In this document: positions 3,264-50,116 of the stretch, in pieces | Layout of the letters: every line of letters starts with the position of its first letter | Numbering within the stretch: the stretch's first letter is position 1 | NCBI GenBank assembly: GCA_019745975.1 | Contig: JAIESQ010000005.1 | Location: 1-50,524, forward strand | Source: Pirellulales bacterium | GTDB lineage: Bacteria; Planctomycetota; Planctomycetia; Pirellulales; JAEUIK01 | Direction of reading: 5' to 3' | DNA length: 50,524 nucleotides | Program-made: the position numbers and the translations under genes | The notes under the pieces: generated by a model | Told to the model about the DNA's origin: nothing | Seen by the model: the letters and a program-made list of their open reading frames with translations, nothing else | The model's database searches: none

Positions 3264-3268
3264 GGCTG

Positions 3269-3275
3269 CCTCCTT
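3269..3275 (-). promoter_or_regulatory. Strong ribosome-binding site for the solitary DUF1501 gene
   Basis: On the minus strand this reads AAGGAGG, fully complementary to the 16S rRNA tail, with a five-base spacer to the ATG ending at 3263. It fixes the start codon. Confidence 0.8.
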
Positions 3276-3478
3276 GGCGGTTCGCTTGAGGGCAAGTCGA
3301 CCGCGAGCACGCGCTCGTGTGGCGGCCAGTCGCGTCGCAAGCCCTTTCTAGCGAAGCCGTTTGACACCTCAGTTTAGGGCAGCCGCGAAGCGCGGGTCAA
3401 ACCCGGTTGGCCGCGGCGACGAGTCGCTCCACCCCTCCAGGAGAACCTGCAATGTCTCAAATGCGAGGGGGACACGTA

Positions 3479-3669
3479 CGAATGGCATCAAGTTAGTACT
3501 AAGTCGATTCGCCACAGGGCTGAAGCAGTGCTGTAGCAGCACGCTTGCATCAGACCGCTGTCGCGATGATTCTCGGGTTTCGCGCGCGGACATGGTTCGA
3601 CGAATCTGCTATCGCAGCAATGCTTAACGAAACTGTGCACAGTATTTGCGCTTAACTTGATGCCATTCG
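3479..3669. repeat. 17-base perfect inverted repeat enclosing several hairpins
   Basis: The arms CGAATGGCATCAAGTTA at 3479-3495 and its exact reverse complement at 3653-3669 enclose 157 bases. Inside are further self-complementary elements: TGCTG-ta-(G)CAGCA near 3528-3541, CTGC-tatc-GCAG at about 3606-3618, and the perfect 12-base palindrome ACTGTGCACAGT at 3632-3643. No open frame with coding character spans it. It lies in the 597-base divergent gap between the DUF1501 and DUF1805 genes and is AT-richer than the flanking genes. It could be a structured RNA, an operator region or a non-autonomous mobile element. Confidence 0.75.
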
Positions 3670-3744
3670 GGACACGTACATGTTTTCGGCCAACGTGAGT
3701 TGGCTACGAATGACTTTGGCGAGCCGAAAAATGTACCAGTCCCC
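3669..3744. repeat. Imperfect palindrome built from two copies of the GTACATTTTTCGGC repeat
   Basis: The left arm (3669-3690) reads GGGAC..GTACAT-g-TTTTCGGC and the right arm (3723-3744) is its near reverse complement. About 19 bases pair, with a two-base internal loop and one bulged G, around a loop of some 32 bases. The arm sequence GGACTGGTACATTTTTCGGC also occurs near the window end at 49632 and 49881, so this is a dispersed repeat family. The element abuts the 17-base inverted repeat on its left. Confidence 0.7.
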
Positions 3745-3860
3745 GACTTGCAGTTCTCCTCTCGCCCCTGCACGCTTGTTTTCGGCTCCCGCCAGGACTA
3801 TCAAACAATGGCGCCGCCAGGGGAGTTCCGGCTCCCCACACTTTGCAAAAGGCCACACCG
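3745..3860. other. 5' flank of the DUF1805 gene
   Basis: This is the remainder of the 597-base gap. It contains a short GGGGAG run at about 3819-3824, but I see no convincing promoter hexamers or start-proximal Shine-Dalgarno. The first part of the gap (3276-3478) likewise shows no gene. Confidence 0.3.
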
Positions 3861-4196
3861 ATGAACGAATTGCCCCAAGCCAACCAGCGGATTATCGAGA
3901 CCCCCTACGGGCGAGCCCTTGGCAACAGCTTTCGCTGGAAAGGGGGGCAGTACTGCGCGATCCACACACTGCGCGGGCTGGTCGGGTGCGGCATCTACGA
4001 CGTGCGGATCGCCGGCGAGTTTGGTCAGGCCGTGGCGATCGCGCGGGGCACGCCCCAGAAACCGCTCTGCGAGCCCGAAGACTTGTTCAACGCCAAGATT
4101 GTCGAAGTCAGCAAGCCGGCCGAGGCCCTCGGTATTCAGCCCGGCATGACGGGGCTCGAGGCCGTGCATAAACTGCTACAGGCCGAGACGAGCTGA
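3861..4196 (+). CDS. DUF1805 domain-containing protein (YunC-like)
   Basis: This 111-residue protein matches the small DUF1805/YunC family over its whole length. The visible landmarks are the sequence around RWKGGQYCAIHTLRGLVGCGIYDV, the FGQAVAIARG strand, EDLFNAKIVEVSKPA and the C-terminal GIQPGMTGLEAV. The family forms small soluble single-domain proteins whose biochemical role is unknown. I chose the ATG at 3861 (MNELPQ) because the upstream in-frame ATG at 3843 adds only six non-conserved residues. It is followed after 25 bases by a small membrane-protein gene on the same strand, so the two may be co-transcribed. Confidence 0.85.
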   Translation: MNELPQANQRIIETPYGRALGNSFRWKGGQYCAIHTLRGLVGCGIYDVRIAGEFGQAVAIARGTPQKPLCEPEDLFNAKIVEVSKPAEALGIQPGMTGLEAVHKLLQAETS

Positions 4197-49594: not shown

Positions 49595-49631
49595 TGGCGC
49601 AAGGCGGTGTGCTTCACGCAGCGGGCGCCGC

Positions 49632-49675
49632 GGACTGGTGCATTTTTCGGCGTGCGACGTGCCAAGGGACTGTCC
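49632..49675. repeat. GGACTGGTGCATTTTTCGGC repeat, copy A
   Basis: This reads ggactggtgcatttttcggc followed by gtgcgacgtgccaagggactgtccc. It matches copy B at 49881 over about 40 bases and the inverted copies at 3669-3744 over about 20. Confidence 0.75.
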
Positions 49676-49766
49676 CGTGTTAGCCGCGCACGCGGCGAAA
49701 TCGCTTAGCCGTGGGTGAAACCCACGGAACCGTGTCCCAATCGAATCCTCAAGCCGCGCAGCGGCG
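49666..49766. repeat. 101-base repeat, copy 1
   Basis: GGGACTGTCCCGTGTTAGCC continues with a CCGTGGGTgaaACCCACGG hairpin and ends in AAGCCGCGCAGCGGCG. It matches 50016-50116 at about 80 percent, with differences mostly in loops. Confidence 0.7.
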
Positions 49767-49880
49767 ACATCGTGTTGAGGGCTTTCCCGTTTTCGGTGTC
49801 ATCCGGGTGTGCCACTGCTTGGTAGTCGGCCGTTCGTGCGTTGCCTCGGCACATGCGATCCGCCGACGAACAAGCAGTGC

Positions 49881-49925
49881 GGACTGGTACATTTTTCGGC
49901 GTGCGACGTGCCTGGGGACTGTCCC
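49881..49925. repeat. GGACTGGTACATTTTTCGGC repeat, copy B
   Basis: Second copy of the repeat at 49632, ending in GTGCCTGGGGACTGTCCCC, a small palindrome. Confidence 0.75.
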
Positions 49926-50015
49926 CTTATTCGGTGCTCGACTTCGCGATAGCTAACCGGCGTCGCCCGAATACAGGGGACTGTCCCCCTCCGCCCCTCG
50001 CGCGACATCACGCCG

Positions 50016-50116
50016 GGGACTGTCCCGTCTTAGCCGCGCATGCGGCGCAATGCGCACAGCCGTGGGTGCAACCCACGGAACCGTGTCGCGAGCGAACTCT
50101 CAAGCCGCGCCGCAGC
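50016..50116. repeat. 101-base repeat, copy 2
   Basis: Starts GGGACTGTCCCGTCTTAGCC and carries the same CCGTGGGTgcaACCCACGG hairpin and AAGCCGCGC end as copy 1. Confidence 0.7.

Follow-up and report, generated by a model that had tools for sequence, protein, structure and literature searches.

The stretch of DNA analysed here (50,524 nucleotides from a Pirellulales bacterium, referred to as the window) contains, between two divergent genes, an exact 17-base inverted repeat at positions 3479 to 3495 and 3653 to 3669, and the question raised by this locus is whether the repeat closes a structured or regulatory RNA or marks the ends of a mobile element. The neighboring genes encode a DUF1501 protein (PF07394; 1917 to 3263, reverse strand) and a DUF1805 protein (PF08827; 3843 to 4196, forward strand, with a true start that may be the ATG at 3861). 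DUF1501 proteins are associated with planctomycetes, and the presence of this neighbor fits that origin. The repeat, with its 157-base spacer, was as exact as originally predicted and was the sole perfect, nonoverlapping inverted repeat of at least 15 bases with close arms in the window, the others listed being more than 5 kb apart; a search with the 16-base arm, allowing up to 3 mismatches, returned 2 window matches against 0.15 expected. Directly outside the arms lies a perfect 11-base direct repeat, GGGACACGTAC, at 3469 to 3479 and 3669 to 3679, which is absent from the original prediction. The C and the G that pair outermost in the 17-base arm (3479/3669) both belong to this direct repeat, and therefore the true terminal inverted repeat is 16 bp, GAATGGCATCAAGTTA, placed at 3480 to 3495 on the forward strand and at 3653 to 3668 on the reverse strand. 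Inverted ends bordered by a direct repeat are what a transposable element and its target-site duplication look like, and the inverted repeat is almost certainly the end pair of a 189-bp MITE, a nonautonomous IS4-type element, occupying window positions 3480 to 3668 on the forward strand. Reading frames across the element were short or interrupted, with no gene-length frame inside, in agreement with the prediction that no coding frame spans the region; a count of the longest open frames across joined sites was discarded, as long frames arise by chance at high GC.

The window's own genome (G000; 6.98 Mb in 204 contigs) was searched with positions 3469 to 3679 as the query. Ten full copies of the MITE were found, each exactly 189 bp in length; nine were identical, and the copy on contig C173 differed at one base. 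Perfect 11-bp duplications flanked all ten copies, with eight different duplication sequences over the ten sites: GGGACACGTAC, GGGACAGGTAC (two sites), GGGACAGGTCC, GGGACAGGGAC, GGGACAGTCCC, GGGACTGTCCC (two sites), GGGACGGAGAT, and CCCCCTCTGGT. The original prediction had described the 17-base repeat as seen only once in the window and had proposed that many genomic copies of the arm would support a mobile element; the genome-wide search returned 22 exact arms, or 11 pairs, which correspond to the ten MITEs and to one 1,717-bp element on contig C116. Allowing 2 mismatches added two further matches, compared to 1 for a reversed control pattern. The element is thus noncoding, short (within the range of about 70 to 300 bp for MITEs), and multicopy, with 16-bp ends identical to those of an insertion sequence (IS), and its ten copies with target duplications bear out the option of a nonautonomous element. 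The near-identity of the copies points to recent spread. No full copy was present outside the window's genome among the 97 genomes searched (own included). The six genomes of the same family that were searched, all from other genera, also lacked the element, so that no orthologous empty site was seen and the empty sites considered below are paralogous. Plasmid and phage sequences gave no match to the element. Weak matches of 24, 25, and 37 bases in three other genomes (E values of 0.001 to 0.006) were taken as chance. The same was true of two contig matches to a partial arm plus GGGAC, which had no second arm within 120 to 250 bases on either side and came from a contig collection that may leave out records near the window's genome. 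Some pairs turned up by the free search for ends were likewise due to chance and were set aside.

The C116 element (C116:6346-8062) was the only element found in the genome, besides the MITEs, with the MITE's ends, and it carries a 421-amino-acid transposase open reading frame. The transposase belongs to the IS4 family (NF033592; E value, 1.3e-51; 175.7 bits against a cutoff of 115; PF01609), and the complete YREK motif characteristic of subgroup IS4 is present in it (Y-RL-R-WTI-E-TCFGHL-K; YRLRWTIETCFGHLK). On visual inspection, GAATGGCATCAAGTTA agreed with the end pattern -AATR--------WTW---- that De Palmenaer et al. (2008; PMC2266710) give for that subgroup in their Table 1. Against the 10-to-13-bp range of direct repeats tabulated there, the duplications were 11 bp at all ten MITEs and at 19 places among relatives, and the flanks of the C116 IS were unequal (GGGACGGGGCA and GGGACAGGTAC), which suggests recombination between two inserted copies. 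An uninterrupted transposase gene in an element of 1,400 to 1,650 bp, as in that subgroup, was not found at C116; three IS measured in relatives were 1,503 to 1,511 bp. Since the C116 copy is oversized and its gene is interrupted, we refer to the mobilizer as IS4 type without counting this copy among the subgroup's intact members.

The interruption lies near the start of the gene and consists of a 195-bp insert that has inverted ends of 23 bp and is flanked by a duplication of 9 bp. Upstream of the insert is a stretch similar to the N terminus of a relative's transposase in genome G032 (34.6% over 52 positions; E value, 7e-4), the rest of the gene lies downstream, and the 421-residue frame stays open there. 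Loss of transposase function through the insert is likely but not certain. The insert itself represents a second MITE family, with three identical full copies, each with its own perfect 9-bp duplication (L053:2363-2557, which is C116:7662-7856 within the IS4-type transposase gene; C201:114024-114218; and C52:4183-4377) and, on C85, a single partial match (83% over about 63 bases). At an E value of 1e-5, the only other match to the transposase in the genome covered 26 residues at the beginning of contig C62, and because the only long match lies in the interrupted gene, the genome contains no clearly intact mobilizer. At the same edge (C62:2-79), about 77 bases of IS transposase sequence are joined to other sequence, either an assembly edge or the remains of a second copy. 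The right-end interiors of the MITE and the C116 IS aligned with a score of 21, compared to a maximum of 13 in 500 shuffles, and the MITE against the whole IS interior gave a score reached by 5 of 500 shuffles; the left-end interior of the MITE showed no similarity to the C116 IS (61 of 500 shuffles scored as high). These alignments point to a related IS as the probable ancestor of the MITE, without clearly indicating the C116 copy itself.

The ten insertions were strongly biased in their targets. Nine of the ten duplications begin with GGGAC in the orientation of the element (chance, about 1.6e-21 with assumed base frequencies of 0.32 and 0.18), and of these nine, the six that are nonpalindromic share one reading direction. 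A long REP-type hairpin, GGGGACAGGTACATGTTTTCGG...CCGAAAAATGTACCAGTCCCC or a close variant of it, harbors five copies (C156, C193, C114, C170, and C181), which without exception occupy the arm reading ATGTTTT and enter it at one and the same base, and three copies (C48, C204, and C163) lie in GGGACWGTCCC palindromes. The remaining two are outside REPs, where the C173 site shares GGGAC only and the C201 site is unrelated. Most copies are thus in REPs (8 of 10) and the register is the same in the five long REPs, as for a REP-targeting element such as ISRm22. With a generous 204 sites of 21 bp, at least 8 of 10 copies would fall in REP arms or palindromes by chance with a probability of about 9e-25. 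The long REP arm had 148 matches in the genome at up to 3 mismatches compared to 0 for the control, and GGGACWGTCCC palindromes numbered 56 compared to 3, with the inserted sites included in both counts. Within the window, two long REP arms and four GGGACTGTCCC palindromes are clustered near its end (49630 to 50026) without a MITE. The duplications at the ten sites were self-complementary at 28 of 50 pairs compared to 13.1 expected, a figure dominated by one REP family.

At the window locus, the MITE lies in one arm of such a REP. When the element and one duplication were removed from the five long-REP copies, the joined flanks read as the intact REPs of uninterrupted sites; for comparison, 19 uninterrupted sites were handpicked from the listed arm matches, and the ATGTTTT arm was present under the pattern used in 16 of them, with variants in the other three. 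The abutting 19-pair hairpin of the original prediction proved real, with positions 3669 to 3745 folding (as DNA) at a z score of -4.45, and its dispersed family is the REP type counted above. As the joined flanks read as REPs, this hairpin is the remainder of the target REP. The left duplication (3469 to 3479) falls in the left fragment of the interrupted hairpin (3468 to 3479), the outer end of one arm, and the right duplication (3669 to 3679) directly precedes the rest (3680 to 3744), all on the forward strand; the assignment rests on the REP arm matches, the joined flanks, and the fold. Mobility had been favored for the adjacent hairpin alone; instead, the inverted repeat itself bounds the mobile element.

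Related elements elsewhere in the order were examined for the same behavior. Transposase matches with E values of 1e-40 or better were found in 27 of 196 genomes of the order (own included), and the YREK pattern, with Y or F first, was present at 23 of 28 scanned loci of relatives. Fifty loci, including the window genome's own IS and some that cover the same place, were examined for target statistics. A perfect 11-of-11 duplication was found at 20 loci, and since L140 is the same place as L103, these amount to 19 distinct places, all with GAATG[GC]CA-type ends; loci with 8 to 10 of 11 positions matching (L089, L094, L141, L149, L154, and L155) and loci without a matched pair were left out of the count. 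The relatives' duplications were self-complementary at 51 of 95 pairs compared to 25.4 expected, and none of 20,000 shuffles of their own letters was as high. By eye, a REP-type context was recognized at 3 of the 19 sites, one in G032 and two in G077, which speaks against a preference for REPs throughout the family. The G032 IS, with 58% transposase identity, also occupies a REP of this kind (ATGTTTTCGGCC...GCCGAAAAATGGACCAGACCCC); its register and its orientation relative to the transposase match those in the window's genome, but it lies in the other arm. Of the five sites of one IS type in G077, two consist of GGGTCTGACCC hairpins; this palindrome has 27 occurrences in that genome compared to 4 control matches. 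The other three sites are nonpalindromic (GGGTCAGGTCT, GGGGCGGGGGT, and GCATCTGGCTC). In G106, the target of the four readable copies of one IS type (L145, L146, L149, and L150) is GMGTTTCACKC, and all four face the same way with respect to their gene, L149 having unequal flanks; this motif occurs 59 times in the genome compared to 15 control matches, about 4-fold, with the insertions' own duplications included. Another G106 locus, L092, is an IS with other ends, sited at GTTGATGCAAC. The REP arm has a patchy distribution across the order: at up to 2 mismatches it was matched in 19 of 146 genomes (own included) and in none of the six other genomes of the same family. A genome from another family of the order, G072, contains the very high number of 299 related REP arms at up to 2 mismatches.

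The presence of five copies in the same arm of the same REP type would also be expected if the element had hitchhiked, through homologous recombination or the copying of a larger REP unit whole, and had not chosen its target. However, the flanking REPs differ between copies in loop and outer sequence, the ten sites carry eight different duplications, three further copies are in palindromes of another type, and the related IS of G032 uses the same register. We therefore consider hitchhiking very unlikely and favor insertion into chosen targets.

The original prediction had also allowed for a structured RNA, and we considered a structured noncoding or cis-regulatory RNA between the two genes, with the arms closing a multibranched fold. 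The whole 189-bp element does fold at a z score of -4.08. However, the 157-base spacer alone gave a z score of -0.03 and was equaled or exceeded in stability by 90 of 200 shuffles, so that the stability of the whole is due to the end repeats; of the hairpins predicted in the spacer, the palindrome ACTGTGCACAGT is present (3632 to 3643, forward strand), with no sign of function found, but together they amount to no more than chance. Moreover, a search of the whole window against Rfam at gathering cutoffs gave no match, the region from 3264 to 3860 contained no terminator-like site and one promoter-like match, outside the element, and the same 189 bp recur at nine further sites, where the duplications vary from site to site. 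The copies hardly differ from one another and are too alike for a covariation test. An RNA is accordingly highly improbable, and what resembled one is explained as a plain insertion of the MITE.

Finally, the idea that the 189-bp element belongs to the REPIN-type repeats and owes its movement to the genome's RAYT (Y1) transposases, not to an IS4 transposase, finds 15 Y1_Tnp matches in the genome (14 over the family cutoff) and about 200 REP arms and palindromes but fails, to the point of having almost no probability, on the 16-bp ends, which an IS4-type IS shares exactly, the 11-bp duplications at all ten copies, and a length of 189 bp where a REP proper is a RAYT-moved palindrome of 20 to 40 bp. 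REP/RAYT movement is not expected to duplicate its target, which counts against it further. A RAYT origin may fit the host REP and not the inserted element.

For the MITE, the shared ends suggest that its 16-bp terminal repeats would be recognized by a DDE transposase of IS4 type acting in trans. This enzyme would cut the element out and join it across an 11-bp staggered cut, a putative cut-and-paste reaction that would leave the 11-bp duplication. It would appear to prefer targets that start with GGGAC and are often palindromic, namely the arms of REP hairpins and GGGACWGTCCC palindromes. REP arrays are thought to be made by RAYT transposases. We tentatively suggest, with somewhat less than even confidence, that IS4-type transposases across the order recognize short GC-rich palindromes, always with the same register and orientation, and that REP arrays may offer intergenic landing sites to another, unrelated mobile lineage along with its MITEs. 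If so, two mobile systems are layered here, and the mobilizer has itself been hit by a third. Ten clean insertions of a near-identical element in a base-level register constitute a compact natural record of how an IS4-type element picks its targets, and since used and unused REP arms differ by few bases, target choice is directly testable. The locus is also a warning that composites of REP and MITE can pass for regulatory RNA folds.

MITEs are commonplace. In size (70 to 300 bp), terminal repeats (15 to 30 bp), noncoding content, and likeness to an IS, the window element resembles the bacterial MITEs described in PMC3733652. Its ends and 11-bp duplications fit the end pattern and 10-to-13-bp repeats given for IS4 subgroup IS4 by De Palmenaer et al. 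(2008; PMC2266710), where a "spectacular apparent insertion specificity" is noted for some members; unlike those elements, it has no transposase, and a word search of that paper found no instance of "MITE". As in the REP/RAYT system of PMC2817692 and PMC3116915, the host hairpin is a palindrome dispersed through a genome that encodes Y1 transposases; the 189-bp element is not itself a REP. Entry of IS elements into REPs has been reported for five IS families, including IS4, by Tobes and Pareja (2006; PMC1525189), whose account of ISRm22 of Sinorhizobium meliloti, an IS4-family element with nine copies in REPs, provides a close parallel. The REP target of ISRm22 is likewise palindromic with GC pairs at the ends of the duplication, but ISRm22 is an autonomous IS, uses another REP family, and has another host; it has been placed in subgroup IS4Sa (PMC2266710). 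Narrow searches of the open-access literature found no REP-guided MITE insertion, from which absence in print does not follow. With a REP-targeting IS4-family element already known in ISRm22, the MITE here is a largely expected kind of mobile DNA; what it adds are ten clean, REP-guided insertions of a MITE of IS4 type.
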